Shown: one piece after another, positions 4,584-30,544 of the stretch
How positions within the stretch are numbered: the first letter of the stretch is position 1
How the letters are laid out: the number at the start of each line of letters is the position of its first letter
DNA from: Aquabacterium olei
GTDB taxonomy: Bacteria; Pseudomonadota; Gammaproteobacteria; Burkholderiales; Burkholderiaceae_C
Direction of reading: 5' to 3'
NCBI GenBank assembly: GCA_029279925.1
Contig: JAJUHM010000005.1
Span: 1 to 34,467, forward strand
Length of the DNA: 34,467 nucleotides
The notes under the pieces: generated by a model
Told to the model about the DNA's origin: nothing
Database searches by the model: none
Seen by the model: only the letters and a program-made list of their open reading frames with translations
Position numbers and translations under genes: made by a program

Positions 4584-7328
<2,745 letters not shown>

Positions 7329-9217: not shown

Positions 9218-9235
9218 GAGGTGCTCCCTGCTGCG

Positions 9236-11109: not shown

Positions 11110-11115
11110 GGGGTC

Positions 11116-12087: not shown

Positions 12088-12129
12088 GCCACTCGTCCTT
12101 CCTGCTACAACCGCCTGACAATCCCTTCC

Positions 12130-12498
12130 ATGAGCACGCGAGACAAGCCCCCCTTCGCCGCGCGACCGCCCGGCACCTTCCGGCCCGCGGTACAGCGGCC
12201 CATGGTGCCCGACGTGCCGCCGGTGCAGGCCGCCATGCGTCGCGCCGGGGCCCTGGGCAACCTCATGTCACGCCTGAAGATGTCCCAGGAATGCCTCGAG
12301 GTGGTGAAGTCCTGTCTGCCGCCTGCCATGGCGGCCCACGTGCGGTCCGGCGCGCTGGATGACGACGGCTGGACCCTGCTGGCGGCCAACTCGTCCGTGT
12401 CGGCCAAGCTCCGCCAGCTTCAGCCCGACCTGATGGACGCGCTGAAGAAAAAGGGGCTCAAGGTTAACGCAATCCGGGTACGGGTTCAAAAGCAGTGA
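12130..12498 (+). CDS. DUF721 / DciA-like protein
   Basis: 122 aa in-frame with ORF 10891..12498; size, sequence character and adjacency to M23-secA block fit DUF721. Confidence 0.7.
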   Translation: MSTRDKPPFAARPPGTFRPAVQRPMVPDVPPVQAAMRRAGALGNLMSRLKMSQECLEVVKSCLPPAMAAHVRSGALDDDGWTLLAANSSVSAKLRQLQPDLMDALKKKGLKVNAIRVRVQKQ

Positions 12499-12520
12499 AC
12501 CCGTCCGGCTGCGGGGGCAC

Positions 12521-13699
12521 TCAACCCAGCAGGGGCGGAACCTGGGCCGCCAGCGCCTGACGCTGGCTCACGGCCTTGCCCTGCAGCACGAAGCCCAGCA
12601 GCCGGTCGGGCTGGGCCGCGTCCGTGAAACGGGCCTCCAGGCCCTCGTCCGTCGTGCTCACCTGCCACCGGCCCTCGGCCCCATCGGGTGGGGGGCTGAC
12701 CACGGTGGGCCAGGCGGGTGTCTTCACCGCCACCGGCATGGCCGGGTAGTTCACCGGGGTGGGCTTGCCTGCCAGCGTGGCGGCCAGCGCGCGGGCCTGC
12801 TGCATCAGGGGCATCACGTAAGGCAGCAGCGTGCCCTCCACCTCGGCGCAGTCTCCCAGGGCGTACACGTGCGGCACGCTGGTGGCCAGCAGGCGGTCGA
12901 CCACCACCCCGCGGGCGACCTTGGCGTGCGCCCCGGTGGCCAGGTCGGTCCGTGGCTTGAGGCCAATGGCCGACAGCACCAGATCCGCTTCCAGCGTGCT
13001 GCCGTCGTTCAGGGTCACGATCAGGCCGTTGGCGCCGTGCTGCACGGCTTGTGCACCGGTTCCGAAGCGGAAGCGGGCGCCAGCGGCCTCCAGCTTGCCT
13101 TGCAGCAGGGCGCTGGCCTCGGCCGGCAGCAGGCGGGGCAGGGCGCGGTCTGCCAGGTCGATCACGGTGGGCGTGATGCCGCGGGCCAGCAGGTCGTTGG
13201 CGAACTCGCAGCCGATCAGGCCGGCGCCCAGGATGACCACCCGTTGCACCGGCGCCCCGTTCGGTCCTTGTTCCAGTCGCTCGGCAAAACGTGCGAAGTC
13301 GTCCAGGTCGTTGACCGACAGCACGGTGTCGGCCGCATCCCCTTGCAAGGGCAAGCGGATCGGGTCGGCGCCCAGGGCCAGCACCAGGTCGCGGTAGGCC
13401 AGGGTCTCGCCGTTCGACAGGCTCAGCGTGCGCGCCTCGCCATCAATGGCCGTGACGGTTGTGTTCGGAAGCACACGGGCCTGCACCTCTTCGGCGATCT
13501 TCTCGGCGGGCTTCATCACCAGCGTGGCGGCCGTCTTCTTGCCGGCCAGCGCGTTCGACAGCATGGGCTTGGAGTAGAAGCCCGCGTGGTCCCGGCTCAC
13601 GACCACGATGGGCACGGCCGGATCGGCCTTGCGCAGTTCGCGCGCCAGATTCCAGCCAGCCAGGCCGGCGCCGAGGATGACGACCGCATCAGAAGACAT
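12521..13699 (-). CDS. FAD-dependent rubredoxin reductase / NAD(P)/FAD oxidoreductase
   Basis: VVILGAGLAGWNLARELR FAD motif, VVILGAGLIGCEFANDL NAD motif, HVYALGDCAEV; next to rubredoxin. Start at 13699 (MSSDAVV). Confidence 0.9.
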   Translation of the reverse strand: MSSDAVVILGAGLAGWNLARELRKADPAVPIVVVSRDHAGFYSKPMLSNALAGKKTAATLVMKPAEKIAEEVQARVLPNTTVTAIDGEARTLSLSNGETLAYRDLVLALGADPIRLPLQGDAADTVLSVNDLDDFARFAERLEQGPNGAPVQRVVILGAGLIGCEFANDLLARGITPTVIDLADRALPRLLPAEASALLQGKLEAAGARFRFGTGAQAVQHGANGLIVTLNDGSTLEADLVLSAIGLKPRTDLATGAHAKVARGVVVDRLLATSVPHVYALGDCAEVEGTLLPYVMPLMQQARALAATLAGKPTPVNYPAMPVAVKTPAWPTVVSPPPDGAEGRWQVSTTDEGLEARFTDAAQPDRLLGFVLQGKAVSQRQALAAQVPPLLG

Positions 13700-13713
13700 G
13701 GGTGCGGCTCCGG

Positions 13714-13878
13714 TCAGATCTCGACCATTTCGAAGTCGGACTTGCCGACGCCGCAGTCCGGGCACAGCCACGTGTCAGGCACGTCTTCCCACTTGGTGCC
13801 GGGCGCGATGCCTTCACTGGGGATGCCCTGGGCCTCGTCGTAGACAAAGCCGCACACGATGCATTGGTAGGTTTTCAT
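13714..13878 (-). CDS. Rubredoxin
   Basis: [18 protein letters not shown]...[14 protein letters not shown]; two CxxC knuckles; start ATG at 13878. Confidence 0.97.
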
Positions 13879-13909
13879 GGGAACTGCTTCAGTGTAAACC
13901 GGTGGATTT

Positions 13910-13949
13910 TGACGCACCGAGGTGGCGCGCGTGGGATGCCGGTGCGTCA
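13910..13949. repeat. Perfect 10-bp inverted repeat with 20-nt spacer upstream of rubredoxin
   Basis: TGACGCACCG (13910-13919) and CGGTGCGTCA (13940-13949). Confidence 0.75.
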
Positions 13950-13966
13950 GCAGGGGGGCGCCGGCG

Positions 13967-15400
13967 TCAGGCCGTCTGGTGGCTCATCGGGTTGTTCGCG
14001 AACTCGGGCGCGACGCCGGCCGGGGACGTGTTCTGGTTCGCGGCGGAGGGCTCGGCCGCCGCAGCGGTGGGGGGCGATGCCACGAGCATATGGCCTTTGC
14101 CCGCCCGCGCTTGAGCCCCCAAAGCGGCCTCAACTGTGTCCAGCAGGCCGGCGTAACGGGTTCGTGGCCAGTAGAAGCTGCCCGGCAGCTGTGTCTGGGC
14201 GATGAGCGCGTTCAGGAAGCAGCCGAACTGCACTCGGTCCACCTCGCCTGGGTTGCTCCAGAAGTCGTCAAGCTCACCTCCGAAAGTCAAGCCAGGATGG
14301 TCGTACAGCGCTTGGCCCATGACCTTTACGGGTGTGCCGTGAAACATTGACGAGAGGCCCACAGTGCTATTGATCAGCACCGTACCCGACGCATGCTCGA
14401 GCAGTGTGGGCAAGTGCCCGTCGCGCAGGTAATGCACCCGACGCTTCAGCGAGTCTTTTCCAAGCAAGCGCACTTGCGAGCGAATCAGGCCTCTGTAATC
14501 TCTATGGCCCCGATTCATTGGGTGATGCTTGATCACCAGGTGTGCGTCGGACGGTGCGTGCCGCGCGAACGATGTCAACACGTCTTCAATGAACGAAACG
14601 ATCGTTGTGTAGCCACTGTGATGCTGGAGCTGCGAGTCGTTGTGGACCTGTAGCGGTACGAGAAAGTAGCGAGGCGTTCCGGAACTGAGGAGGCGCTGCA
14701 CTACCTTTTCGGCATGGCGGGGGGCCCATGTCTTGATGATGCCTGATCGCAACCAAGCCAGCGCTTCCATTAGCACTCCGGTAGGCCGATGATGTTGGTA
14801 CTCCGGGTAAAGCGGAGCGCCGAGCTTGGTGAGCAGGTGGTATTGAGCGGCCAGACTTGCCACTGAGCGAAACGGCAAGCGGAAGTGGGGCGCCTGCGGC
14901 GTAAGCCCCATGCCTCCATCGCCGGCTATATCAGTAGGCTGTGGCCAACGGAATGAGGAGCGTGAGTTCACCCCGCCGACCTCAAAAGTGATGAAGTTTG
15001 GCCTGACATAGCCTTCCTCAAACACCATAACGGGAACGCCGAGCTCTTCAAGCACTCGGCGGGCCTCTCGATGTACAGGGCGGTCCTGGCCAAACACAAG
15101 GCAGGCATCCGGCCTTGCGGCCTTCACGTGCTCCACGAGGTGGTCGGCGAATTGATCCAGGGCACCGCGGAACCAGTGCCCACTTGGAAAGAACCGTACG
15201 TCACCGCCAGTGAAATTGATCTTGTCGACCTCGACGCCACTTTTGAGCAAGCTCGAGGCGAGATCGCGAAAAAAAGGCCCTACTGGGCCTTGCAGCATCA
15301 AGACGCGACGGCAAGCAGCGAGTTGCAGCAAAGCCCTATTTGGCCAGTGCGTATCCCTAGGCGGCTCTACACCCAGCCGCTGAGCATGTTCCTCAACCAT
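13967..15400 (-). CDS. kpsS: Capsule polysaccharide export/lipid-linker protein, KpsS-like
   Basis: [85 protein letters not shown]. Confidence 0.9.
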
Positions 15401-17157
15401 CTTCTTGATTTATTCAGTGTGCGCGTGATCAGCTGTCCGGGCCCGGGTAAGTGCGAGTTCTGTCGACAGTCGGCCAGATGCCTGGCAACGGCTTCTGGCG
15501 TGCTGAACACCAGCCAATGCCAGTCCCAATAAATCGGGTAATCCAACAATGTTACGGCGATCAGGTCATCAAGTTGCAACTTTTTTGGCCTGTCGAGGAG
15601 ATGCTCACACCGGTCTGTGGTCAGCCCCCAACCGGCGTAAAAGGGCAGGCCGTGAGTGACAACCGGCTTGCCCCGGATGAGCGCGTCGAAACCCGCTAGT
15701 GACGAGACCACGTGTACTTCGTCGACTGCATCGAACAGCGAGAGCAGGTCTGCCTCTGTGTCTACTTCATCGCATAACTCATGCGCTGCAATCAGGCCTC
15801 GTCTGTTGCCAGAAAGCACGTCGGGATGCGGCTTGAAAACGAGCCAGGCTGCTGGTTGCTCGGCGCGCACGCGGGCCAGCATCTGCTCGGCCGTGGTGAC
15901 GGCATCGTCCGAACGTCCCGCCCCCAGAATCATGGCAGCGTCATCCGCCACTTGGCCAATGGCGAGCACGACCTTCCGATGAGGTGGCGCTTTCCACTGA
16001 ACTGGCCTTGGAGCGAAGTTGTACTTCGTCACCCGTAATTCGACCAGCATGCGCCTCAATGCTGCCGCCCTGGCGCGTGCTTCCGGCTCCACCTGTGTGC
16101 GGCTAAGGCGCGTCAGCAATTCTGATCCGTGGACCGCGTCAAAGTAAATGCCTTCGCGGTCGATTACCAGGCTGCTGGGCGGGACGAGATCCGATCCCAG
16201 GCCGGCGGAACGCAGAAACCCGTCCTCTACGCGAACCACCGCGCCTCCACAAGCCGAGGGCCGAGGTGTGGCGCCCCACAGGGCAGTTGTCACCTTCTTC
16301 GCTGGAGTGCAGGCGTCGAGTCGAGTTCGCCACCGCATCGGGTGGCCACCAGCACTCAGATAAGGGCGAAGATAGGCCTTTTTCCAGGCTGCCATACCGT
16401 ATGCCTCGATGGTGCCCAGGTCTCTGAATCGGTCTCTTACTGACCTCTGTACCGCCAGAAACTCGAGGGTGTCGCGCAGGCATCCCTGACCTCGGTGCGC
16501 CAGGTCAGCATACATGCTGCCGCGCCAAGCCACGGCCTCAAACAAGGCGGGCAGCGTTACATGGCCGCGCTCGGGTGGCGCTGGCAGCGCGTCCTCTGTC
16601 AGCCCCCAGCCTGCATACCAAGGTTGCCCCCAAGTTGTGAGCACGGCGCCGGCCATGAGTGCCGTGAATCCGCGCTCAGCCGAATGAGTGCACACGCTTG
16701 CTGCCGCCTGCAGCCACGGCCATGCGGCCGTGCCCGGTAAGAGAACATGCACATTGGGGTGGGGGCGCCGCGCCAACGTGCGCGCGAGCAAGCCAGCCCG
16801 ACGGGCGCCTTCGTCAGGGAGCACCCAAACTGGCAGCCCCGGATGCTGGCTCAATACAGTTTCGAGCATCGACAGCATGTCACGGGCTGGGCCGGCTTCC
16901 TGGTCCAGCAGCAGTATGAATCGCTCTGCCGGCGGCGTAGGAACGCTTTGCTGCTCGAGCAGCGGGCAGGCGCTGGACTGCAGTGATCGCCACAAGTTCA
17001 GATCTGACAGCAAGGCCGGATCGCGCCCCAGTGGAGCGACGTCAGCCAGTGAGAACCGATGCCAGTCGCAGATACGCCATGACACCAAACCTTCGCCGTC
17101 GGGACGCAGCGAGCGGATCAAGCCGGGTGAGTTGGCTGTCCGGTCATGTCGAGCCAC
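15367..17157 (-). CDS. kpsC: Two-domain capsule polysaccharide protein, KpsC-like (Kdo transferase family)
   Basis: Two copies of the YAGWGLT motif (WGQPWYAGWGLT, HGLPFYAGWGLT), VEDGFLRSAGLGSDLVPPSSLVID. Start chosen as GTG 17157, preceded by GAGGAGG on the minus strand. Confidence 0.88.
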   Translation of the reverse strand: MARHDRTANSPGLIRSLRPDGEGLVSWRICDWHRFSLADVAPLGRDPALLSDLNLWRSLQSSACPLLEQQSVPTPPAERFILLLDQEAGPARDMLSMLETVLSQHPGLPVWVLPDEGARRAGLLARTLARRPHPNVHVLLPGTAAWPWLQAAASVCTHSAERGFTALMAGAVLTTWGQPWYAGWGLTEDALPAPPERGHVTLPALFEAVAWRGSMYADLAHRGQGCLRDTLEFLAVQRSVRDRFRDLGTIEAYGMAAWKKAYLRPYLSAGGHPMRWRTRLDACTPAKKVTTALWGATPRPSACGGAVVRVEDGFLRSAGLGSDLVPPSSLVIDREGIYFDAVHGSELLTRLSRTQVEPEARARAAALRRMLVELRVTKYNFAPRPVQWKAPPHRKVVLAIGQVADDAAMILGAGRSDDAVTTAEQMLARVRAEQPAAWLVFKPHPDVLSGNRRGLIAAHELCDEVDTEADLLSLFDAVDEVHVVSSLAGFDALIRGKPVVTHGLPFYAGWGLTTDRCEHLLDRPKKLQLDDLIAVTLLDYPIYWDWHWLVFSTPEAVARHLADCRQNSHLPGPGQLITRTLNKSRRWLRNMLSGWV

Positions 17158-18382
17158 GACGGCGGACCTCCTCGATAAGGTGATCGATTGCATCGAAGTG
17201 CGCTTCCCAGGTGGGGGGCGTGAAGGCCTGTAGTCGGTGAAGCTGCGCAGCGCGCTCGGCACTGTCCGGCCTAGCGTAGGCCATGATTAGTCTCGTCCAG
17301 GTGGCTTCGTCAGCTGGCGGCGCCCAGTCTGGGACCTCGCCGGCGACTTCGCGAAACACCGGGAGGTCGCTGGCGATGACGGGCAGACCCTGTTGTAGTG
17401 CTTCAGTCAGCGGCATGCCGAATCCCTCGGTCCATGACGGCAGCAACAGCGCCCTTGCTTGACTCATCCAATACGCCAGCTCAGCATCAGTGCAACCGCC
17501 GCGCTCCAGTACATGGCCGCGCAGCCGGGTGTCGCCATCAAGCAGGCTCGCTACGGTTTCAGTTCGCCAACCGCGCCTACCGACGATCACCAGCTGGGGT
17601 GCGTTCCCGCCGGTGGCCTCCACCAAGCGCGGCCATAGGCGCAGCAGCATCTCGTGGTTTTTGCGGGGCTCGATCGTGCCAAGCATCAGAAAGACAGGCC
17701 GCGAAGCGTGCTGTGCAGCGTTGTCCGACGTCAACGTAGGCAATGACCGTGTCCCGAGCGGCGCGACCAGTGAATGCGGCATCCTGAGCCCCTGGGTCTT
17801 CGCGAAGCGTGATAGTTCGCGTTGCGTATCCGCTGAGTTGCAGATGACGGCTGCGGCGCCCTGCAGGGTGTGGCGCATGCGCCGCACATGCCGGGCTGCC
17901 TCCCCTTTTCGGCAAAGCTCTGGGTGCGTAATGGGGATGAGGTCATGCACCATCACTACCGGCTTCAGGTGATGTCGCCGCCAGCTGGATACATACGCGC
18001 TGTCATCCAGATCGCTGTGCGTGACGTGCAACACGATGCCAGGCCCCGATGGCTGGGGTGATCGTGCCGACCGCCAAGGCACGTGGGCCCAGTGCAGCAT
18101 GCCTTGCACGCGCGCGACAAAGGCGGAAGCAGCAGGCCGCAACAGCTTGGAGAACAGTGCCCTGCTGTCCCTAGCGCCCAGGTAGGCGGACCAGGGGCCC
18201 TGATGCACCAGCGCCCCAGCAAGAAGGTGGTAGCGTTGCACATAGGCAAGTGCCACGCGGTCGATACCTGTGGGCACAATACCCTTTGCCTGACGCCGAA
18301 CCAAGCGCGAAACGTCCAGCCAGAGATCTCTATCTGATGAGCATGCACCCCTACTGCCTACGAACCCTTCTTCTTTTTTCAT
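17144..18382 (-). CDS. Glycosyltransferase family 4 protein
   Basis: LGTIEPRKNHEMLLRLW, PSWTEGFGMPLTEALQQGLPVIASDLPVFREVAG. Start uncertain: only ATG is 18382, inside the divergent kpsD-like gene. Confidence 0.85.
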   Translation of the reverse strand: MKKEEGFVGSRGACSSDRDLWLDVSRLVRRQAKGIVPTGIDRVALAYVQRYHLLAGALVHQGPWSAYLGARDSRALFSKLLRPAASAFVARVQGMLHWAHVPWRSARSPQPSGPGIVLHVTHSDLDDSAYVSSWRRHHLKPVVMVHDLIPITHPELCRKGEAARHVRRMRHTLQGAAAVICNSADTQRELSRFAKTQGLRMPHSLVAPLGTRSLPTLTSDNAAQHASRPVFLMLGTIEPRKNHEMLLRLWPRLVEATGGNAPQLVIVGRRGWRTETVASLLDGDTRLRGHVLERGGCTDAELAYWMSQARALLLPSWTEGFGMPLTEALQQGLPVIASDLPVFREVAGEVPDWAPPADEATWTRLIMAYARPDSAERAAQLHRLQAFTPPTWEAHFDAIDHLIEEVRRRGST

Positions 18383-19539
18383 CCTGGACGCTGACTGCGT
18401 GTAGTGTGACCCCGAGCTTCATTCCTACTGCCGGCCCCAGCAAAAGCGAGGTGCAGGAGGGAGGGGGCGTGCAATTGGTAAGTATCGGCGCAAAAGACCA
18501 GCCTGGCGCCGTACAGCTAGTTGATGTCAATGATGCCGTGGTGAAGCAGCTGCGCGGCCAGCAGCAGCAGCAACTCTTCTCCCAGGCTCTGGGCGATGCT
18601 GCGCCCAAGCCCCTGGTGGTAGGCGTTGGCGACAGTCTTGAGGTGGTGATTTGGGAGGCCCCACCAGCTGCGCTGTTTGGCTCGACTGCGCTAGACACCA
18701 GAAGCGGCGCGAGTGTGACCACCTCGCGCAATGCAACCATTCCCGAGACTGTTGTCAATGCGCAGGGTGAGATTGCTGTGCCTTTTGCGGGGGTCGTGAA
18801 AGTCGCCGGTCGGACCTTGCAGCAGGTGGAGGGTGAAATCACCCAGCGCCTGAAGGGTAAGGCTAACCAACCTCAGGTACAAGTTCGCCTCGCGCGCAAC
18901 GTCGCGAACAGCGTGACGGTTGTTGGTGAGGTGGCGGCGAGCACCCGCATGCCACTGACACCAAAAGGCGAGCGCTTGCTCGACGCCTTGGCTACCGCAG
19001 GTGGTGTGCGCCACCCTGTAAACAAGGTGACCGTTCAGTTGACGCGCGGCCAAACTGTGCATGCGCTGCCGCTGGACACCATCATCCGCGACCCTCGGCA
19101 GAACGTCGTGCTTCAACCCGGCGACGTGGTGACTGCGCTGCATGAGCCGCTGAGTTTCATGGCCCTGGGTGCCGTGGGCAGAAACGCCGAGGTCAACTTC
19201 GAAGGACAGGGGATCAGCTTGACACAGGCACTCGCGCGGGTCGGCGGGCTACAGGATCAGCGCTCGGACGCTCGAGGCGTGTTCGTTTTCAGGCTTGAAG
19301 ATGTCCACGCGCTGTCGTGGCCACAGCCAATCCAACCCAACGCTGACGGCAAGGTGCCCGTGATCTACCGGATCAACCTCCGAGATCCAAATAGCCTGTT
19401 TGTTGCGCAGGGGTTTGCGGTACAGAATAAGGATCTGCTGTATGTCAGCAACGCGCCCGTGGCAGACCTGCAGAAGTTTGTGAACGTGATCGCGGGGATC
19501 GGGTATCCGGTTCTGGGGGTGGTTAACGCGACGAAGTAA
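18337..19539 (+). CDS. Polysaccharide export outer-membrane lipoprotein (KpsD/Wza/BexD-type)
   Basis: Lipobox LTAC; VGVGDSLEVVIWE, SLB-like repeats (GEVAASTRMPLTPKGERLLDALATAGG; VVLQPGDVVTAL). Confidence 0.9.
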   Translation: MSMHPYCLRTLLLFSSWTLTACSVTPSFIPTAGPSKSEVQEGGGVQLVSIGAKDQPGAVQLVDVNDAVVKQLRGQQQQQLFSQALGDAAPKPLVVGVGDSLEVVIWEAPPAALFGSTALDTRSGASVTTSRNATIPETVVNAQGEIAVPFAGVVKVAGRTLQQVEGEITQRLKGKANQPQVQVRLARNVANSVTVVGEVAASTRMPLTPKGERLLDALATAGGVRHPVNKVTVQLTRGQTVHALPLDTIIRDPRQNVVLQPGDVVTALHEPLSFMALGAVGRNAEVNFEGQGISLTQALARVGGLQDQRSDARGVFVFRLEDVHALSWPQPIQPNADGKVPVIYRINLRDPNSLFVAQGFAVQNKDLLYVSNAPVADLQKFVNVIAGIGYPVLGVVNATK

Positions 19540-19568
19540 AACGCGACATGGTCTTTTAAGATTGTGCT

Positions 19569-20204
19569 GTGTCACTAAAATGCAATCGACCGAGGCCATC
19601 AATGCCGGCAGCTATGGCGACCGAACCCGAAACATCGAACCTTGACCGTCGAGACCTTGCTCTAACTGGAGAAGAAACCGGCGTATGCGCAAGCGGGGCC
19701 GTACTTTGGCTGACGGGATTAAGCGGCGCCGGCAAGACGACGCTGGCCCATGCCATGGAAAAGGCCCTTCTGGAGGCTGGCCGGTCTTGTACCGTGCTTG
19801 ACGGAGATGTGTTGCGCGCGGGCGTAAACCGCGACCTCGGCTTCAGCGAAGCTGATCGGAACGAGGCCGTGCGACGGGCTGCCCTCATGGCTCGCTCGTT
19901 GAGCGATGCGGGGCATGTTGTCTTGGTTTCAATGATCTCGCCCCTCTCAACCATGCGGGACATGGCCAGGGACATCGTGTCGCCGCACGTGTTCCATGAG
20001 GTGTATATCTCAACCCCGCTGGCCGTGTGCGAAACACGCGACCCCAAAGGCCTCTATAAAAAGGCCCGAGCTGGGGAGATCTCCCTCTTCACAGGGATCA
20101 GCGCGCCGTATGAGGTCCCCAGTGCGGCCTCTGTCACCATCGACACGAATGCCGTGTCTTTGGAGGACGCTGTCCGTCGACTCTCTATGCTTGTCAGCGT
20201 CTGA
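19569..20204 (+). CDS. cysC: Adenylylsulfate (APS) kinase
   Basis: WLTGLSGAGKTTLAHAME P-loop, VLDGDVLRAGVNRDLGFSEADRNEAVRR, DPKGLYKKARAGEISLFTGISAPYE. Start could be 19602. Confidence 0.94.
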   Translation: MSLKCNRPRPSMPAAMATEPETSNLDRRDLALTGEETGVCASGAVLWLTGLSGAGKTTLAHAMEKALLEAGRSCTVLDGDVLRAGVNRDLGFSEADRNEAVRRAALMARSLSDAGHVVLVSMISPLSTMRDMARDIVSPHVFHEVYISTPLAVCETRDPKGLYKKARAGEISLFTGISAPYEVPSAASVTIDTNAVSLEDAVRRLSMLVSV

Positions 20205-20251
20205 CGATCTGCGGCCAGAGTGATCCTGAGCCACATCAAGCCCATGCCCGA

Positions 20252-21214
20252 TCAGAAGCGTGGCGAGCGCAGCCTTCGGACCCCACGACGCCACGCATTG
20301 GCCTGATACCACCTGGCAATGGCGTTCGGCGCCGCGTGTTGATTGACACGCTCTGACTGCTCGCCTGCCGCTTCAATGGCGGACAAGTACGTTCGGCACA
20401 GTGCCCTGAGATGTTGGTTGGCTGCCGTGGGCTTTCTTGTTGCGGCGTAAACACTGACCTCTTCAGGATGGGATCGCCGAAATCCACTGAAGTGAAAGAA
20501 CACCATATCGGTGACGCCAACTCTAAACCGACCATCGTCCGACATGGTGACCGGGCGTTCGTCCATATTCCAGTAGGCGACGTTCAGGCCTTCGTTGCGT
20601 AGCACGCACGTTCCCTCGAACAAAACGGGAGCGAGGTCCAGCCATCGCTGGTCTCCGCACATGCCGGCACGCGGCAAGTTGTATCCCAACCGACGTGTTC
20701 TATCCTGCCACCACGACAAAAAAGCTCTTCCATTGGGGCATGCAGAGGTTGACACAAATCCACCGTTATACAGACCCGCTCGAAGCAGCGTCAGTTCGCT
20801 GGGCTGTTGTTGAGGTGTCCTCGCGCGAAGGTAATGTGGCGTCAACCCGACTGCGTGTCGTGAGCAAGTCTCAAGCGTCGGAGCGATATCCGAGACAAAA
20901 AAAACATCCGAGTCAATGTAAGCAGCAGTGGTCGCTCCTCTGTCCAGCTCCGCTTCGATGAGAAGAGGCTTCAGGGCAAAGCACACTTCAGCCCAACTGT
21001 AGTCTTTGGGGAATCCTTCGGAAACGATGCGTTGAATTTCGTCGCTGATCCGCAAGATCTCCACGCCGGCCGCCTCGCCGACCTCTGGTTCGCGGTCCAC
21101 AAGGTAAATCGCGGCATGCGTGCAAGGTGAGTGTGACTTGGCGCTGATCATGGCGGCAAGCGCGATATCAACATGCGATGCTGTTGCAATGGTGAAGAGG
21201 TGAATGCCGCTCAC
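20252..21214 (-). CDS. Nucleotide-sugar glycosyltransferase with DXD motif
   Basis: AAYIDSDVFFVSD, GDQRWLDLAPVLF, GLNVAYWNMDER. GTG start at 21214 overlaps the upstream stop (GTGA). Confidence 0.7.
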   Translation of the reverse strand: MSGIHLFTIATASHVDIALAAMISAKSHSPCTHAAIYLVDREPEVGEAAGVEILRISDEIQRIVSEGFPKDYSWAEVCFALKPLLIEAELDRGATTAAYIDSDVFFVSDIAPTLETCSRHAVGLTPHYLRARTPQQQPSELTLLRAGLYNGGFVSTSACPNGRAFLSWWQDRTRRLGYNLPRAGMCGDQRWLDLAPVLFEGTCVLRNEGLNVAYWNMDERPVTMSDDGRFRVGVTDMVFFHFSGFRRSHPEEVSVYAATRKPTAANQHLRALCRTYLSAIEAAGEQSERVNQHAAPNAIARWYQANAWRRGVRRLRSPRF

Positions 21215-22416
21215 ACACAAGCCTGTACACGTGCCCAATTGAGGTAGAGACCGAGGTCTCGATCGTCTTCAAGGCCATGGTCCCTCTTCGGGTTCACCGT
21301 CCTCTTGATGTGAAAGCGCACCTCGATCAGCCCATTGGGGTGCACGAGTTCGTACGGGATGTCAAACCAAAGGTAAGAGAACGAGCCACCTTCTGCGCCA
21401 GGGCATGGATGAGTAGAGGTTGCCACGGGGACACCGTTGAGCGTGACGGCCATGTCGTCGACGTCCTGCGCGTCATAGGTGGCCACCCGCGAGAAGAACC
21501 GATGTTTAACAGGCCGCTGCAGCAAGAACCCGATCCAAGGTTGCATGGTGGACGACCAGACGTATTGAGATCCGGCGTAGCACTCTACCGGTCCCCAGCC
21601 GCCGCCTACCCATCCAGAAACCAGGTCTACATGATCATTGAAGTATTGAGCAGACAGCGGCATCTCACTCAGAGACATGGATTGGCAGGCGGCGGCCTGC
21701 TGTGCAGCAATCAACTTCGCCAGCTCGTATAAATCCCTGTCAAACCTGGTCAACCACTCAAGCCGCGATTTGTCGGCTTGAGAAAGCGTTGGCATGGGGA
21801 CGTCCGTTTTAGCGACGTTGAACCGCGCATCATTCTCGAGAGGAACCCCCATGTGGCGCGACAACATGTCCAGCGAGGAAGCATAGCTTTCCGTGAGTCC
21901 AACAAAGAAGCACCTACTGAGATTCTCCTTGGCCCGCTCAAGGAGTCGGCGCGAGTTCAGCAGGGTGGTAAGAGACGCACGGTCTTCCCGTCTTGACAAG
22001 GCTGCTAAGTGGTCTCCGATGTCACTGAACCCGATGAATCTGGCTTGATAGTTGAGGAGTTCGAACTCGGACAGGTCGCTGTGGATGAAGTCACAGAAGC
22101 TCATGTCTGCGACGGCTTGATTGGAGGGATGACTCTTATCGTTCTGAATGTGCAGAAAGTGAGAGTACGCGCGCGATATGGGCTCGCGCAGGAATGTCAA
22201 TGTCTTGAGCTTTCGCGGGTGCAACGTGAGCGGGTAGGCGCCAAAGTGTCCCGCCAGGAAGCCAACTGCCTCAAGTTGGGCTGAGGGAACCTTGAGGTAG
22301 TCCTCCAGAAACCATTCGGGCCGGCACTTCTCGGGTGCAAACAGCCGAGACAGGCTGTGTCGCAGCGAAGTGCCCGCAGTCTTCGGGATATGGTTGAAGT
22401 AGATTGGCGCTATCAT
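21211..22416 (-). CDS. PAPS-dependent sulfotransferase-family protein with C-terminal extension
   Basis: FNHIPKTAGTSLRHSL (5'-PSB-like), LTFLREPISRAYSHFLHIQ (3'-PB-like); ~140 aa C-terminal region lacks these motifs. Confidence 0.85.
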   Translation of the reverse strand: MIAPIYFNHIPKTAGTSLRHSLSRLFAPEKCRPEWFLEDYLKVPSAQLEAVGFLAGHFGAYPLTLHPRKLKTLTFLREPISRAYSHFLHIQNDKSHPSNQAVADMSFCDFIHSDLSEFELLNYQARFIGFSDIGDHLAALSRREDRASLTTLLNSRRLLERAKENLSRCFFVGLTESYASSLDMLSRHMGVPLENDARFNVAKTDVPMPTLSQADKSRLEWLTRFDRDLYELAKLIAAQQAAACQSMSLSEMPLSAQYFNDHVDLVSGWVGGGWGPVECYAGSQYVWSSTMQPWIGFLLQRPVKHRFFSRVATYDAQDVDDMAVTLNGVPVATSTHPCPGAEGGSFSYLWFDIPYELVHPNGLIEVRFHIKRTVNPKRDHGLEDDRDLGLYLNWARVQACV

Positions 22417-24410
22417 CGTTGCGAGGGGTATAGCAGGCGAACCAGTTTCGTCAGCCAGGCATCATTTCGCCACAACAGGTACCCGTCAATCCAGCCCAAA
22501 GCACTGAGCCTTTGCCGTGCCCGGCGCCGACCTGCTTTCGAAAGCAGCATGATGAAGAGCCACGAACTGGGCACCTTGTCAATCTTGCTGATGTAATGGC
22601 CTACGCCAAATGTCTCATTGTGTGACAGATTGAAATAGGCGTTCAATATGTCAGCAGGCGGGGAGGTGATCAGCTTGCCCCAATTGACCAGCGCCAAGTC
22701 CTTGACTTGCCGCGAATCGTAAGCGTGCCGGAAAACCTCTGGGGCCGCTCGCTGAATGGAATGAATCAGCGCCCGCTGGAATCCTTGCGTAAAATTTTCG
22801 TAGACAGCGTTCTCTGCCTGGTCGATTTCACGCTGTGCTGCGCCCTCAAGGTAGCGCACCACGCTTCCGTTCGGCGAGTTGCACATCATCTCGATCGGTG
22901 CCACGAAGCGCAGCAATTCGGCGTGTGCGGGGCTACGATTAAGGTCTGGGCCATATGCAGCCTTCGTTGCATTTTTAGGTTGTTGGTTCAGTAATTTGCT
23001 AAGGCCTAAATAAACGCCGTGAATTGGCGTTCTTGAAAACAAATGGGCCAGATTGTCTTGTATCGTGCCTCGCCAGCCAATGTCGACGACCATCACCGAC
23101 TTGGTGGCATCCGCGGGGAGCTTCTTGCTGAAATACGCGAGTGCCTCAGCTCTCTTGCGCTGAATCTGTGCTTTTGCGATTTCTTGGACCGACGCATCCG
23201 AAAAAAATGCTTGCACCCCTGGGTGCTCCCAAGGATAGCGAATAACTGCCTGGGGATCCAGTCCGTGCCGCGACATGGCCGTTGCGTAGGGATCCAGTTC
23301 GAAATCGAGGCTCTTGAATAGCGCGCCCATGGACTGTGAGGAGTACAGGTTCCATATGCGCATCATCTCGGATGGAGAAAACTCGCTCAAGGATGGAGAG
23401 AATGTGGCGAGCCGACTGACTTCAAGCAGTTGCCCTCTCGGTAGGGTGTCTCTGATCGGCGATGCTTGCCTGACCGCCTCATAAGCTTGAATGAAGAACT
23501 CACCCTCTCTTGTGAAGAAATACAGGTTCTCAATGCCTAGCCTGCGGCACTCCTCTTGCACGAACAAGATGTATCCAAGGATCAGGGGCAGCGCCAAACG
23601 GGCGGAATCCGGGTGTTCCTGCGTTGCGCTGGCGAAGATCGCATTCAGATGCTTGGTCCGATCATCAAACGTCTTTTCAGTCGCCAGTCGGCGTTCGTGC
23701 TGCTTGATGGGTAGATAATGATGAGCGGTGATGCCGCGTTCCTGAGGTATACGAACGTCGGAGTGTGCGTTGTCACCATAGTGATGCCACTCCAGATCGT
23801 CAGTTACTCCCTCTGCCATTCGGACATGATCAAAAAGCCGCCCCGAGCGCTTATTGAGTCCAGCATCGCAAGAAACGTAGCCATGGTCAAAATATTTAGC
23901 AAGGCCTGCTGCTTCGATTAGTGTGTCGAGAAGTTCTTTCGGGATGTAGAAGTCGGAAATGTAAATGCGGCGTGTGGCACCATCTTGCTCAATCGTTTGC
24001 ACGATGTCGTCATCGGCAGAAATCGACTTGCGCTCAAAGTCAAGCTCTGCCGCCAGGAGTCTGTCTGCGACGGCTGCTCGGTCGACAGGACGCAACTTGC
24101 ATACGCGATCGATCCAACTGCACAGAACGTCGTGAAGGCGATACTCGTCGTCAAGCCCCTGTGACCGCGCGCTAGCGCCAATGTCGCGCTCTGCGATTTG
24201 CCTGAACCGCAGTAGCACAGCCGGGTCGTGCAGATGGAAGGGGATGGCGTCGCCGCAAACGAGGAGGAGTTCGTTCGAGATGTGAATCTTCACCACGTCC
24301 GGATGGCAAGCTCGTCGAATGACGGTATCCCAGACATCATATGAAACAAGGCGTTGTTGCACTGTATTCACCGTTATTGCAGTGCCTTGATGAGACTTCT
24401 CTTCGTCCAC
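22413..24410 (-). CDS. HAD-like protein of polysaccharide loci, large uncharacterised C-terminal region
   Basis: YDVWDTVIRR, RIYISDFYIPKELL, HYGDNAHSDV HAD-like motifs; ~400 aa C-terminal part. Start uncertain: GTG at 24410 overlaps the upstream gene, an alternative GTG is at 24371. Confidence 0.75.
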   Translation of the reverse strand: MDEEKSHQGTAITVNTVQQRLVSYDVWDTVIRRACHPDVVKIHISNELLLVCGDAIPFHLHDPAVLLRFRQIAERDIGASARSQGLDDEYRLHDVLCSWIDRVCKLRPVDRAAVADRLLAAELDFERKSISADDDIVQTIEQDGATRRIYISDFYIPKELLDTLIEAAGLAKYFDHGYVSCDAGLNKRSGRLFDHVRMAEGVTDDLEWHHYGDNAHSDVRIPQERGITAHHYLPIKQHERRLATEKTFDDRTKHLNAIFASATQEHPDSARLALPLILGYILFVQEECRRLGIENLYFFTREGEFFIQAYEAVRQASPIRDTLPRGQLLEVSRLATFSPSLSEFSPSEMMRIWNLYSSQSMGALFKSLDFELDPYATAMSRHGLDPQAVIRYPWEHPGVQAFFSDASVQEIAKAQIQRKRAEALAYFSKKLPADATKSVMVVDIGWRGTIQDNLAHLFSRTPIHGVYLGLSKLLNQQPKNATKAAYGPDLNRSPAHAELLRFVAPIEMMCNSPNGSVVRYLEGAAQREIDQAENAVYENFTQGFQRALIHSIQRAAPEVFRHAYDSRQVKDLALVNWGKLITSPPADILNAYFNLSHNETFGVGHYISKIDKVPSSWLFIMLLSKAGRRRARQRLSALGWIDGYLLWRNDAWLTKLVRLLYPSQR

Positions 24411-25573
24411 TTCTTGAATCTCGTGATCGGATCAAGGCGTGGCTTGCTCGCGATCAGTCGCTCTCGGATCTCAGCGGGGATGGAGCTGATGAAGGGCGTT
24501 GCGACCACAGGCGGTTTGGAGTACATCGGCGCAATAGCTGCCTTTGCTGCCCGGTCGGCTTCGCCGTGGGTTGCGCGACCATAGGCATCCAAGAATTGCC
24601 TGTACCCGTCGCTCAGGTCTCTCTGCTGCATGAACTTCACCGCTGCGGCTTCCATCTGCTGCGTTCGTTCAGGGGTGTTCAGCAGGTAGACCAATCCTTC
24701 CGCGATGGATTCCGGGGTCTGGTCACACAGGAGGCTTGCGTCTTCAGGAAGGTCGAACAATGTGTTAGACCGATGCAGTTCGACGACCGGCAGGCCAGCG
24801 GCCATCATCTCGAACGGGATCCGAGAAGGGTTCGAGGAAGAAATGCACAATCCGACTGATACTCGGTTGTAGAGTGCGTTGCACTCCTCAAGCGACAGAA
24901 GCCCCAGATGCTCGTGGTCAAACCAGACGTTGCCTCTTTCCCGCGATCCGTAAAGATAGATCCTCACATCGGGCAAGTGGTACTTGACGATGCCCAAAGC
25001 CTCAATACCCATCTGAGCGCCGCGACGTGGCTTCTCCGGTTGATAGATAAAGGCGATGGCCCGCTCACGTTTCACGTTGGGCAGCCTTGCATAGATGCTC
25101 CGGTCTGCGCAAAAGTCGAAATAAAGTGCGTCTACGTTGAACCTTTGTTTCAACTCGTGAGGAAGCCAGCGTCCAATTGTGATGGGTGTCAAACCATAGC
25201 GATATGAGTTTTCTGCAAAAAGGTAGGTATCACCCATCGGGTTAAAACACGCCTCCCAGTCTTGCACGAAGTAGAGCTTCTTGCAAGAGAAAGGCAGGTC
25301 GCGCACCACCCGGGCGCTATACCATATGGTCGCAAAGACCGAGTCCACCGGGCTGATGTTATCCCAGCCTACTCGGACATCATGAAATCGGTAGCCGAAG
25401 AGCCGAAATATGGCGTCGGCGCCCGACTCGCCGGAGAGAAGGCAATTGTTATTTTCCAGGTAGAGGGTCGTCCCGTTGCCGTGCAATGCCAGAAACTCGG
25501 CATTTTGCAATATTGTTCGGTGTCCCCCCGATCCCTCGATGAGAGAGGGAACCAGCCATGCCACTGTGCTCAT
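24374..25573 (-). CDS. Glycosyltransferase, GT4 / WsaF rhamnosyltransferase-like
   Basis: WLVPSLIEGSGGHRTILQNAEFL, YFVQDWEACFNPMGDTYLFAENSYRYG, SSNPSRIPFEMMAAGLPVVELHRSNT; ATGA overlap. Confidence 0.82.
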   Translation of the reverse strand: MSTVAWLVPSLIEGSGGHRTILQNAEFLALHGNGTTLYLENNNCLLSGESGADAIFRLFGYRFHDVRVGWDNISPVDSVFATIWYSARVVRDLPFSCKKLYFVQDWEACFNPMGDTYLFAENSYRYGLTPITIGRWLPHELKQRFNVDALYFDFCADRSIYARLPNVKRERAIAFIYQPEKPRRGAQMGIEALGIVKYHLPDVRIYLYGSRERGNVWFDHEHLGLLSLEECNALYNRVSVGLCISSSNPSRIPFEMMAAGLPVVELHRSNTLFDLPEDASLLCDQTPESIAEGLVYLLNTPERTQQMEAAAVKFMQQRDLSDGYRQFLDAYGRATHGEADRAAKAAIAPMYSKPPVVATPFISSIPAEIRERLIASKPRLDPITRFKKWTKRSLIKALQ

Positions 25574-27987
25574 TTTCTCGGAGTCTTCTGAATGATGGTA
25601 ATACCGCAGCCGTCAAGGTACGGCACGTCGCCCGGGGAGCCGCCCTCAACGAAGGAGTTGATGGCCAGTGGGTGTACGCCGTTGGCTTCGCACCACTCGG
25701 TACTTGCCTTGAGCACACCTCCTCCGCCACTGGAGTCAAAGGTGGCCGCAAATGCTGACGTGTCGTGCAGGAGAATGAATCCTCCTTCTGCCACGAGGCC
25801 ATACCAAAGATCCAGCTCCTTCAGTGTGTGCGCATATTGGTGACTTGAGTCAATGAACACAATCTGCGGGGCCCCACCGAGGTAGTCTAAAGCTGCACGT
25901 GCAGACTCTTCATTGGCCGAGTCACCGATGTGCAGTTGCACTTGCTCGTTCAACTCGGCTCTGTTGATCCAGTCTTGTGTGTACTCAGTCACCATTGGAT
26001 CAATGTCGATTGAGAAAAGGCATTTTTTCGCATTCTGGTGTCGCAGCAGGAAGCCCAGAATGAGGGACGAATAGCCAACGTAGTGACCACACTGAACGAC
26101 CTTTGATATGCCATTGCCAGAAATGAGCCCCAAGAGCAGCGACAGTGGGGGAATGTTGGCCTCACCCGTGCTTTGGAACTGCTTTTCTGTGTCGGTGAAC
26201 CATGCCTCCATCAGCGCCCACTCGACGGGACTGAGGTGGGCGTAGAGCAATGGCACGTACCCGGTTCGCTCGACGCGATGCCACCAATACCGGTTGTGGT
26301 TCCGATCCCGGAACTTCATCGACCGCGGCTCAAACTCTGATGGGGTGTACAGCGCGGGCTGGGGCGTGGCGGCAGTCGGCTTGGGCACGGGTCGAACGAA
26401 GTTCAGCTTGCTGACAAGCTTGTACGCGGCTTGGTTATCGTGCGCCTCTTGGTTGGCCAGATACTCTGTGAGAACCTTTTTGCTCTCGTCGAGTTGCGCT
26501 TGCAAACCAATGATCTCGGCCTGACTCTCGTGGCGAACGATGTCGAGCTCATTGACTGTTTTTGTCAGCGCCGCACGCATTTCGTACTCGCGGTGGAGTT
26601 TGCCTACGGCAGCGGCATGGCTCTGCTCCAGAGCGGCCAACTTGGTAGCCATCGACTCCCGCTGACGTATGGCGCTGTCTGCTACGGCTTCACTGGTCGC
26701 TTTCTGCTCCAGCGTGCGGGCGAGTTGATCACTGAGCAAGGCAGCCTCGTTTTTCTGCCCCTCAAGTGCGAGGGCCATTTTCGCATTGGTCGCCTTGAGA
26801 CTCGCCAGTAAAGCATTTGCCTCCGCCAGTTGATGCTCCTTTGTCTCGTGAAGCGCCTGAATGTACCGGTTTTCTGCCTCAAGCTTGTCGACCTTCAGTG
26901 CAAGCTCGCTGATATTGGTGGCACGTTGATTCGCAGAAGCCGTGGCGTCGGCCAGCGATTGCAGCAATGTACTGATTTTTTCTTCAAGCATTTTGTTGAT
27001 TTCCTCCAAATCTGCGATCCGGCGCTCTGTTTCAGAAGGTTGTTTGGGCGGGGCCGAGGTGATCGTGTGAAAGAAGGGTGTCTTGGCGCCTATGCGCAGC
27101 TCGTCGTTTTCTGACTGCAGCTTTGCGGCTGCGAGGGCCGCGGCACGTCTGTTGGCGTGGCTGGCGGCAATGACGTCAGTGAAGACGGCACCATTGCCCG
27201 CAGCCGGCTTTTCTCCGAGGTGCTCGCCTTTTGTTATCTTCGCAGTTAAATAGAGATTGGTATCGTCTCGCCATATGTCGCAACGGGCGCCTGGCAGCTG
27301 GCTGGCTACCCAGCGAAAGGTGCCGCTCGAGAGGAAAAAGAGATGGGCGGGGAAGATATACTCTGGCGTGAGTAGAGGCACTTGCGCCAAAATGCAACCG
27401 CCTGGCGTAAGGCGGTCGTAAGCACACTTCAATGTCTGAACAGGGTCTTCGAGGTGTTCGAGTACGTGCCAAATGAAAATACAATGTACTGGCGTGCCGA
27501 GCGATTTTTCGCTCTCGAGGAAAGACATGGCATCCTGTTGAGCCAGTTCGTTCTCTGTCAGACGCAGCGTTGTTCGTGCCTGCGTCACGAGCCCTGCTGA
27601 CGGTTCACACCCTTTAGCGTGGTAACCAAGATCCAGGAGCGCGCGGACAAGGGCTCCCCTGCCGGCGCCGAGCTCCAGAATCCTTCGGTCTGCGGACGGG
27701 GGGCCCAACGTGTCGGCCAACGCAGACACCATGCTTCTCAGGTCGGTGACGACGTCCTCGACAGACTCAGTGGCATTTAATGTCCATAGGGATTCATGAT
27801 ATTGACTCTGCCACTTGGTCTCGCTGTTGGTGTCTTCGGCATCAACATGCAGATCAGAGTAAAGAGGCTGTATTGCGTCGCAATGCTCGCAATGAAGCAG
27901 TGCGACGTCGTCCCCTTGCGAGTCAGCGAGATGCGATGCCGCATTCAGCGAGCCGGTACCGCAAACGCGACATTTGCCCTCAGTCAT
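25570..27987 (-). CDS. Dual methyltransferase: Zn-knuckle + class I MTase, ~210 aa coiled coil, second class I (CmcI/Methyltransf_24-like) MTase
   Basis: CRVCGTGSL..CEHCD, RILELGAGRGALVRALLDLGYHAKGCEPS; coiled coil ERRIADLEEINKMLEEKISTLLQSL...; VVQCGHYVGYSSLILGFLL, FSIDIDPMV, FIDSSHQYAHTLKELDLW, FILLHDTSA. SD AAGGGATAT before ATG. Confidence 0.85.
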   Translation of the reverse strand: MTEGKCRVCGTGSLNAASHLADSQGDDVALLHCEHCDAIQPLYSDLHVDAEDTNSETKWQSQYHESLWTLNATESVEDVVTDLRSMVSALADTLGPPSADRRILELGAGRGALVRALLDLGYHAKGCEPSAGLVTQARTTLRLTENELAQQDAMSFLESEKSLGTPVHCIFIWHVLEHLEDPVQTLKCAYDRLTPGGCILAQVPLLTPEYIFPAHLFFLSSGTFRWVASQLPGARCDIWRDDTNLYLTAKITKGEHLGEKPAAGNGAVFTDVIAASHANRRAAALAAAKLQSENDELRIGAKTPFFHTITSAPPKQPSETERRIADLEEINKMLEEKISTLLQSLADATASANQRATNISELALKVDKLEAENRYIQALHETKEHQLAEANALLASLKATNAKMALALEGQKNEAALLSDQLARTLEQKATSEAVADSAIRQRESMATKLAALEQSHAAAVGKLHREYEMRAALTKTVNELDIVRHESQAEIIGLQAQLDESKKVLTEYLANQEAHDNQAAYKLVSKLNFVRPVPKPTAATPQPALYTPSEFEPRSMKFRDRNHNRYWWHRVERTGYVPLLYAHLSPVEWALMEAWFTDTEKQFQSTGEANIPPLSLLLGLISGNGISKVVQCGHYVGYSSLILGFLLRHQNAKKCLFSIDIDPMVTEYTQDWINRAELNEQVQLHIGDSANEESARAALDYLGGAPQIVFIDSSHQYAHTLKELDLWYGLVAEGGFILLHDTSAFAATFDSSGGGGVLKASTEWCEANGVHPLAINSFVEGGSPGDVPYLDGCGITIIQKTPRK

Positions 27988-27999
27988 CAGATATCCCTT

Positions 28000-28656
28000 T
28001 CAAGGGCAAACGGCTGAGCCGTACGCTGCGTATGCATCGTCGATATTGGGGTATTCTGTCAAGACGCCAGCCTCAAGTACGGCTGCTCTCTGGCAATATT
28101 GACGGATGAAGGACGGTTCATGAGAGACAAGAATCATGGCCCGATCGCTTCGCACGTGAAAAAGTTCATGCCGGCACTTTTCTTGAAACCTGGCATCCCC
28201 AACGGCCACGACTTCATCGATCAGAAAGCAGTCGAAGTCAATGGCCATGGACAATCCGAATGCCAGTCTGGCTCGCATGCCCGCGGAATATTTCTTCAAA
28301 GGTTCCCGCAAGTATATGCCGAGCTCGGAGAAGTCTTCCACAAATTCGACCACATCTTCGGGTTTACGGTTGTATATCCGGCAGATGAACTTGATGTTGT
28401 CCAGCCCCGTCAGGCTGCTCTGGAAGGCCCCCGTGAAGGCAAGCGGCCACGATATGGAGATGCCGCTCTTGATAGATCCAGAGGTGGGCCTTTCAACGCC
28501 ACTGATCAGGCGGATCAAGGTCGATTTGCCGGCCCCGTTCCTACCCAATATGCCGAGGCGTTCTCCTTTCTGTAGGGTGAACGATATATTCGACAGCACC
28601 GAGCGCGGCCCGCGGCGTGTGGCGTAGCTTTTCGATACATTGCTGATCTCGATCAT
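28000..28656 (-). CDS. kpsT: Capsule ABC transporter ATPase
   Basis: [19 protein letters not shown] Walker [20 protein letters not shown] signature, [18 protein letters not shown]; start 28656 overlaps the kpsM stop. Confidence 0.95.
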
Positions 28657-29444
28657 TCCGGCTCCACCCGAGAAGCGGTCCAACTCACGCCCAGCAGGCC
28701 AATGAGGAGCATGACTGCGGCGCTGCTGGCGAGGTAGGCCGCGCTGCCGTGCGCCCTGATCGTGTCACCGAAATAACCCTCACGAAATAGCTCGACGGCG
28801 TTGACCATGGGCACCAGAAGGAAAGCACCTTGCACGCTACTTGGTAGCCAGTCAACCATGAAAACTGCGCCGGAAAGGGGGAAGGCGAGGTAGGTGAAGG
28901 TGTGCCAGAGACGGTCGTAAGTTTCCGAGTACTCCGTCAACGAGCCCACTGTCATGGCGAGACCGATCGAAAAGAGGCACAGCAGCCCCCAGCTGTAAAT
29001 CATCAGCAGGAGATCGTGGGGTGGCTGCATGAAGTCCAGAAGCCAGAAGACGGTCATGAGGCAGATGGTGGAGCCTGTTGCGCCTGCGATCTCCAAGATG
29101 GCCCGCGCAAGAAAGAGATCCAGCACCCGTACGTTCCGGTGAAACAGCAGCCCCGCGTTAGGTGCAATGGCCGAGGTGCAGCGATTGGCGGTGTTTCGCC
29201 ATAGCAGCACGGTCGAGTAGCCTGTGACGGCGAAGGCCACGATCGGGAGGTTGGAGCCATGGGTCGACCTGGTGGCCGTCCACAGCGCTGCAACTCCGAC
29301 GGTAAAGAGCATGGGCTCGACGACGAGCCACAAAAACCCGATGTTGTGCCTGCCATACCGAGTGAGAACTTCTCTCAACAACAGCGCACCGATCACGCGG
29401 ATCTGAATGCGCAAGGAGCCGAGGAGTTTGGCCGAGTGCATCAT
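28653..29444 (-). CDS. kpsM: Capsule ABC transporter permease
   Basis: [31 protein letters not shown]-2 permease signature; start 29444 follows the kpsE stop. Confidence 0.93.
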
Positions 29445-29455
29445 GGCGACCGTGC

Positions 29456-30544
29456 TCAGTCGTGGTGCTCTCGCACGCCGCTGATGAGCAGCGATGCAAT
29501 GCCCCATGCGATGGCGCCAAGCAGCATCGTGGCAAGCACCGACTTCAAGCGCTTAGGCTCTGCGGCTATATCTGGCTTGCTGGGTTGCGAGATGCGTTCC
29601 AGGTAGAGCTGCTTACGGACGGCTTCGTTTTTGGCCTGCTCGAGCCCCGCCATGGCGGCCGCCAGTTGCTTGGCCGCAAAGTCATTTTCCAGGGCCAGTC
29701 GTTGATAGGCTGAAGCCTTGTTGGCCAGCGAAGTGGAGCCCCCGGTCACGTTCTTCGTTTCCTCCTCAATCGCGTCTCGCAACGACTCTATGCGTCGCTT
29801 CAGCACGGGGATCTGAGGGTTCTCTTTCGTGACACTCTGCAGCTGGATCAATTGCGTCTTGCTGGCGATCAGCTCTTCTTGCAGCTTGGCCACTTGCTGC
29901 AACTGGACGGTGGCTTGCTTTTCGGGGTCGACGACCGATCTCGTGTTTCGGAAATCAGAGAGGGCCACCGCCGCTTTCTTGACGCGAGCTTCTGCCTCGG
30001 CCACTTCTTGGCGCGCCGCGTCAATCAGGTCGTGCCGCCCGCGCTCATTGAGCCGGTTGACCAGCGTTTCGCTCTGCTCAAGAAGCAGGCGATTGATGTT
30101 CACCGCGTCATCGGCCGAATAGGCTCGCACTGTCAGCGTGGCAATGGATGAGGTGCTGTCGAGCTGCAGGTCTACACGCTTTTGGTAGTAGCGGTGCAGG
30201 GCTTCGAAACTGTTGTCGCCATCCAGGCCGGCAAATCGGCTGATGCGGTCAACATCAGGCGACGCGAACTTGTCGCCAACCTTCAGCTTGTCGTTCAGGG
30301 CCTGAAGCGCATCGCGCGACATGATGTAGTCGTGCACTGCGTAGGCGTCATCGGCAGAGCGTGAGAAGCCCGCACCTTTGAGTACCAGGCCCAGCGCCGA
30401 CGTGGCTTGGCGTTCGGGCGCACGTACTACAAAGCGCGACTCGGAGACGTAAACGTCGGAGGCAATCAGCCCGTAGTAGACGGAAGACAGCAGTGTGGGG
30501 GCCACCACACACGCCAGGAACAAGCGATTGACCTTCATGTCCAC
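29456..30544 (-). CDS. kpsE: Capsule export inner-membrane/periplasmic adaptor, KpsE/BexC/CtrB family
   Basis: N- and C-terminal TM; YVSESRFVVRAPERQATSALGLVLKGAGFSRS...DAYAVHDYIMSRDAL; ERISQPSKPDIAAEPKR. Confidence 0.93.
   Translation of the reverse strand: MDMKVNRLFLACVVAPTLLSSVYYGLIASDVYVSESRFVVRAPERQATSALGLVLKGAGFSRSADDAYAVHDYIMSRDALQALNDKLKVGDKFASPDVDRISRFAGLDGDNSFEALHRYYQKRVDLQLDSTSSIATLTVRAYSADDAVNINRLLLEQSETLVNRLNERGRHDLIDAARQEVAEAEARVKKAAVALSDFRNTRSVVDPEKQATVQLQQVAKLQEELIASKTQLIQLQSVTKENPQIPVLKRRIESLRDAIEEETKNVTGGSTSLANKASAYQRLALENDFAAKQLAAAMAGLEQAKNEAVRKQLYLERISQPSKPDIAAEPKRLKSVLATMLLGAIAWGIASLLISGVREHHD

Follow-up and report, generated by a model that had tools for sequence, protein, structure and literature searches.

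The stretch of DNA analysed here (the window, 34,467 bp) carries a capsule locus whose type-specific cassette most likely brings its own sulfation module, that is, a dedicated supply of PAPS together with a sulfotransferase (ST), for modification of the capsule. The capsule is probably sulfated, judging from sequence, a structural model and analogy with characterised systems. Sulfated capsules have been established in only a small number of bacteria, and most of the sulfotransferases involved have yet to be characterised. The present locus is small, containing a single PAPS enzyme and a single sulfotransferase, the latter HS6ST-like and joined to a putative carbohydrate-binding domain.

A predicted ABC-type capsule locus

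The window spans contig C5 in full, one of 640 contigs in a MAG of about 4 Mb (completeness 86.8%, contamination 5.6%). Its Rhodoferax-like kps genes suggest a betaproteobacterial (Burkholderiales-type) affiliation. Its left part encodes, in order, SecA, ZnuB/ZnuA, a BBP2-type porin, a DciA-like protein and a rubredoxin reductase, and an Lhr helicase lies to the right of the minus-strand run on the kpsE side. The features of the capsule locus are as follows.

13967-15400, minus strand: kpsS-type capsule (Kdo linker) synthesis protein (PF05159, 245 bits)
15367-17262, minus strand: kpsC-type capsule (Kdo linker) synthesis protein (PF05159, 141 bits)
17144-18382, minus strand: GT4 glycosyltransferase (PF00534)
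18250-19539, plus strand: kpsD/VexA-type outer-membrane polysaccharide export protein (PF02563, SLBB, NF011658, NF011722)
19538-29111: low-GC cassette, exchangeable and specific to the capsule type, with another in its place in sibling genome G007
19569-20204, plus strand: cysC, predicted APS kinase, the gene that opens the cassette behind kpsD (PF01583, TIGR00455, PDB APS kinases)
20252-21238, minus strand: putative glycosyltransferase, GT-A-like by eye, without a family match
21211-22416, minus strand: predicted PAPS-type carbohydrate sulfotransferase, ST (profile, alignment, predicted fold)
22413-24410, minus strand: HAD-like protein of 665 aa, without a confident family
24374-25573, minus strand: WsaF-type glycosyltransferase (PF22772, 58 bits)
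25570-27987, minus strand: protein with two methyltransferase domains (PF13489, PF13578)
28000-28683, minus strand: kpsT, capsule ABC transporter ATPase (PF00005; polysaccharide-export ATPase models at the top)
28653-29507, minus strand: kpsM, capsule ABC transporter permease (PF01061, NF050053 KpsM)
29456-30544, minus strand: kpsE, BexC/CtrB/KpsE export protein (TIGR01010, 369 bits, full length)

Read from KpsE (30544), the minus-strand order is KpsM, KpsT, the double methyltransferase, the WsaF-type glycosyltransferase, the HAD-like protein, ST and the GT-A-like protein. Family models recognised KpsC, KpsS, a KpsD-type protein, KpsE, KpsM and KpsT, in agreement with the initial annotation, which had put cysC and the sulfotransferase gene between capsule export genes. 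Several NCBIfam equivalog cut-offs were missed by the export proteins, as expected for another lineage. KpsM, KpsT, KpsE, an outer-membrane export protein and KpsC with KpsS are the components of an ABC-transporter-dependent (group 2/3) capsule system, and by its gene content the locus is a complete ABC-type (group 2/3-like) capsule locus. No sugar-nucleotide genes were recognised within the window, and the plasmid DNA resembling it amounted to short, low-identity matches, the named ones in secA.

The APS kinase and the sulfotransferase

An APS kinase gene and a sulfotransferase gene had been reported within 1.1 kb of each other, split by a glycosyltransferase gene. Open reading frames were indeed found at both positions, and the gap between them is about 1.0 kb and holds one glycosyltransferase-like gene (20252-21238), in whose product a DxD-type motif could be seen by eye; searches of this protein against family models and the PDB gave no match. 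The cysC frame starts 29 bp past the kpsD stop codon on the same strand. Its product scored 200 bits against PF01583 (cut-off 21.1), matching model positions 2-152 of 152, and 214 bits against TIGR00455 apsK (cut-off 138.7), and its best PDB matches were human, plant and mycobacterial APS kinases (1.2e-44). The APS kinase motifs, described as canonical in the initial annotation, were intact in an alignment with human PAPSS1 (P-loop GLSGAGKTT, DGD, ISP and RDPKGLYKKARAGEI..FTGI..PYE). On this sequence evidence 19569-20204 (+) encodes an APS kinase, predicted to make PAPS from APS and ATP.

For ST, the score against PF03567 (Sulfotransfer_2; cut-off 22) straddled the threshold, at 21.2 bits on the whole protein and 22.5 bits in the genome search, so the HMM check suggested at the outset came out over the cut-off for the APS_kinase family and around it for Sulfotransfer_2, and the protein was therefore examined beyond Pfam. 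A profile built from six ST relatives matched HS6ST (7e-22) and HS2ST (6.7e-12). In a 21-sequence alignment, F7, H9, P11, K12, T13, G15, G56, H57, R77, P79, S85, G173, D226 and Y230 were invariant, and most of these columns fall in PKTAGTS and REPISRAYSHF, the two motifs first picked out by eye, which are thus real features of the family. A PAPS-loop lysine and a PxxRxxS 3'-phosphate motif are the consensus by which sulfotransferases are recognised (PMC11625862). The PAPS-binding loop with its predicted catalytic lysine corresponds in ST to P11, K12, T13 and G15, all invariant, and the PxxRxxS motif to P79-R82-S85, of which P79 and S85 are invariant; G56-H57 aligns with the GHV motif of HS2ST and supplies a candidate catalytic base histidine. 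The AlphaFold2 model of ST was confident (pLDDT 89.9, pTM 0.86). A structural match placing the protein outside the sulfotransferase fold would have counted against the assignment; Foldseek instead put HS6ST first in the PDB (E 1.6e-6, probability 1.00), followed by CBM6/CBM35 modules over about 140 aligned columns. The Foldseek table carries no residue ranges, and we infer from the model that the CBM6/CBM35 matches belong to the C-terminal sheet domain, which gives a layout of a sulfotransferase part at about residues 1-245 and a CBM6/35-like domain at about 265-401. By sequence and model, 21211-22416 (-) encodes a PAPS-type carbohydrate sulfotransferase with an HS6ST-like fold.

The genome scan for other cysC or cysNC genes found the window's CysC as the single APS kinase in the ~4-Mb assembly, and ST was likewise the single Sulfotransfer_2 protein. 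Because these two sit 1 kb apart, chance is an unlikely explanation for their proximity.

As to the other cassette genes, the HAD-like protein (22413-24410) shares 41% identity over 647 aa with a protein adjoining another Sulfotransfer_2 gene, in genome G483, where HAD-like and WsaF-type genes stand beside the Sulfotransfer_2 gene in a conserved arrangement; possibly it takes part in capsule assembly as an enzyme of a kind not yet recognised. WsaF is a rhamnosyltransferase. Given the WsaF-type gene of the window and the sulfated rhamnose in the proven capsules of Vibrio sp. KMM 8419 and Cobetia marina KMM 1449, the sugar sulfated here could by analogy be rhamnose, a reasonable guess but a weak one.

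The cassette is exchanged in a sibling genome

The sibling genome G007 matched the window at 98.1% over 4721-19537, the match stopping at the kpsD stop codon, and at 96.1% from a point within kpsM (29112) up to the window end. These points are the left and right (~29112) breakpoints of a window-specific cassette of 9.6 kb, which encodes CysC, the putative glycosyltransferase, ST, the HAD-like protein, the WsaF-type glycosyltransferase, the methyltransferase protein, KpsT and part of KpsM. Its GC content was 53.5-58% in 1.5-kb bins, compared with 60-71% in most flanking bins. Between the same breakpoints G007 encodes a polysaccharide pyruvyl transferase and carries different glycosyltransferase-like genes, and its KpsT/KpsM resemble those of the window at only 62%; both of its contigs end within the cassette, which is consequently seen at its two ends, with the middle outside the contigs. 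The alternative cassette (L190:14802-16759 and L187:1-2900) opens, after kpsD, with the pyruvyl transferase and a glycosyltransferase-like gene. Neither an APS kinase nor ST was found in G007, which is 99% complete. Because G007 replaces the cassette between shared flanks, and does so without APS kinase or ST, CysC and ST belong, on sequence comparison, to that portion of the locus which is exchangeable and specific to the capsule type, and would travel with the capsule type. With both flanks 96-98% alike and the cassette different, G007 is a natural comparison, and the idea that PAPS supply travels with capsule type is therefore directly testable.

Relatives elsewhere and the acceptor of the sulfate

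When 84,980 species genomes were scanned with the single ST sequence, no close relatives appeared; an alignment-based scan gave 80 distant ones. At 75 of these 80 loci CysC was missing within the fetched stretch, so linkage to CysC is not general to the ST family. Sulfotransfer_2 proteins were rare across the order, occurring in 19 of 399 genomes, and plasmids gave three distant matches to ST. The layout of ST with its C-terminal domain recurs in a Rhodoferax MAG, Marinicella, Sedimenticola and others. In an uncultured Marinicella (L111:8546-13894) three such STs lie near-tandem and adjoin a polysaccharide-type ABC transporter, and an ST relative in G314 (L099:9723-11444) has a fused C-terminal domain that by eye is FkbM-type methyltransferase-like. 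One candidate for a standalone CysC in a kps locus (L050 of G069) was rejected as it is actually the end of a CysNC-like protein.

Further CysC genes were seen in other settings. In G022 (L042:5557-15671) and G035 (L044:9907-17890) CysC clusters with an autotransporter (ESPR, Autotransporter beta-domain) and a giant TPR protein that contains sulfotransferase domains (Sulfotransfer_3/1) and, in one of the two genomes, a GT9-like part as well; the G022 cluster occupies the same rubredoxin-reductase hotspot. These clusters possibly sulfate the autotransporter or its glycan, and a limited literature search for such a system returned nothing relevant. In G036 (L045:1233-10578) CysC lies close to the rubredoxin reductase and adjoins what looks by eye like a peptide natural-product cluster, with asparagine-synthase-like, kinase-like, two P450-like and methyltransferase genes.

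The relatives bear on which glycan receives the sulfate. CysC and ST could be active on an acceptor other than the capsule repeat, such as LPS, a glycolipid, the linker or lipid end of the capsule, or some different sugar at the cell surface. O-antigens or glycolipids are sulfated elsewhere (a sulfated O-antigen is proposed in PMC11641403; Stf0, PMC11625862), and ST relatives also stand in Wzm/Wzt-type (ABC) polysaccharide loci, possibly O-antigen loci: in G052 and Pseudomonas alcaligenes ST adjoins CysD and CysNC in such loci, that of G052 with CysQ too. However, ST here lies in a type-specific cassette that also holds capsule glycosyltransferases and KpsT and has its limits at kpsD and kpsM, and the same-type ST of the Rhodoferax MAG is also in a kpsEMT locus, a single stretch carrying kpsC, GT4, kpsE, kpsM, kpsT, a glycosyltransferase-like gene, ST and a methyltransferase-like gene (its CysNC lies elsewhere, cut by a contig end). 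We consequently regard a non-capsule acceptor as unlikely.

Cysteine synthesis and the need for APS kinase

APS kinases in other bacteria often serve sulfate assimilation. CysC might likewise supply a PAPS reductase in cysteine synthesis, its position in the kps locus being incidental; besides this common use elsewhere, the assembly, which is incomplete, yielded no other APS kinase. The initial annotation had argued for a dedicated supply from the lack of cysD/N or cysH in the window. That observation was right, but it is a weak argument, as cysD and cysH are present elsewhere in the genome, together on contig C139, and the stronger argument is therefore the kind of CysH. The CysH of the source genome scored 220 bits against TIGR02055 (APS reductase), slightly below the subfamily cut-off of 235, and 129 bits against TIGR02057 (PAPS reductase; cut-off 254), and it has both cysteine pairs for a [4Fe-4S] cluster, in RKACCGIRKLEPL (CCGIRKLEPL) and CAPC. 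Because it resembles APS reductases and keeps both pairs, assimilation should not need PAPS. No cysN scored over the cut-off in the source genome because contig C139 ends inside cysD, and as far as the assembly directly tells the genome may carry a fused CysNC. A true APS kinase was missing in 37 of 41 congeners, the remaining four having a real-scoring one. The sibling G007 encodes CysD beside an unfused 441-aa CysN, an APS-reductase-type CysH and a sulfite-reductase-like CysI, all without an APS kinase, and cysC is lost there together with the capsule cassette. By sequence, members of the genus seem able to make cysteine without an APS kinase, and against this background a role of CysC in assimilation is very unlikely; the dedicated PAPS supply that was first proposed remains the best reading of the APS-reductase-type CysH, the congeners without APS kinase and the exchange in G007.

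A proposed route to a sulfated capsule

That the module has decayed or lost its activity, leaving the capsule unsulfated, is highly improbable: ST scores near the Pfam threshold and the activities are predicted ones, but neither reading frame is broken or shortened, every motif residue is kept, and the structure model of ST is confident.

From the identities, motifs and folds of the enzymes, their co-location and the cassette exchange, all of which come from sequence or predicted structure, we infer the enzyme activities, the acceptor sugar, the timing of sulfation and the sulfate on the finished capsule. Housekeeping CysD/CysN would provide APS, which the CysC of the cassette would phosphorylate to PAPS, a compound that the APS-reductase route to cysteine would not use. 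ST, presumably cytoplasmic, would bind PAPS through PKTAGTS and PxxRxxS and sulfate a hydroxyl group on a sugar of the capsule chain as it grows, while the CBM-like domain probably keeps hold of the glycan. Export of the sulfated chain, on the Kdo linker made by KpsC/KpsS, would then fall to KpsMTE and the KpsD-type protein. A more speculative extension, which we offer as possible but doubtful, is that ST acts on the polymer while tethered by its CBM6/35-like domain to give a heparan-sulfate-like capsule, and that a capsule switch in this genus swaps a sulfated polyanion for a pyruvylated one, the capacity to make PAPS being gained or lost with the cassette.

Comparison with known systems

Sulfated capsules had been described at the outset as rarely reported; they are rare, but not undescribed, as NMR has proven kps-type cases in the marine bacteria Vibrio sp. 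KMM 8419 (alpha-L-Rhap3S4Ac, from a locus with kpsDMET, sulfotransferases and a second cysNDC; PMC11641403) and Cobetia marina KMM 1449 (alpha-L-Rhap2S; PMC11766843). The architecture of the window is closest to that of Cobetia, with which it shares a kpsETMD operon, opposed kpsSC, PAPS genes between them, a sulfotransferase and glycosyltransferases (PMC11766843). The Cobetia cluster, however, extends over ~94 kb and includes sugar-nucleotide (dTDP-Rha, GDP-Man) and wcb genes (PMC11766843), whereas the present locus is compact and has cysC alone of the PAPS genes; the likeness drawn here is one of architecture. Vibrio KMM 8419 shares KpsD/M/E/T export together with cysC and sulfotransferases, but differs in having second copies of cysN, cysD and cysC, no kpsC and three sulfotransferases over 95 kb; a conspecific strain has a wholly different capsule cluster (PMC11641403). 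Synechan of Synechocystis is another bacterial sulfated extracellular polysaccharide, whose biosynthesis is known; it is a cyanobacterial exopolysaccharide, unlike a kps-type capsule, and is compared here by its product (PMC8205485). The vertebrate enzymes HS6ST and HS2ST resemble ST in the PAPS-binding loop and the PxxRxxS-type 3'-phosphate site, and HS2ST also in the GH motif. They are its top sequence-profile and fold matches, yet identity is about 20% and the bacterial ST carries the CBM6/35-like C-terminal domain. Like the Cobetia and Vibrio loci, the window has a PAPS-forming gene and a sulfotransferase inside a capsule locus; ABC-exported sulfated capsules with such a gene set are already known and the window probably adds another, what is new here being the evidence for cassette exchange, the argument from the APS reductase and the CBM-like domain.
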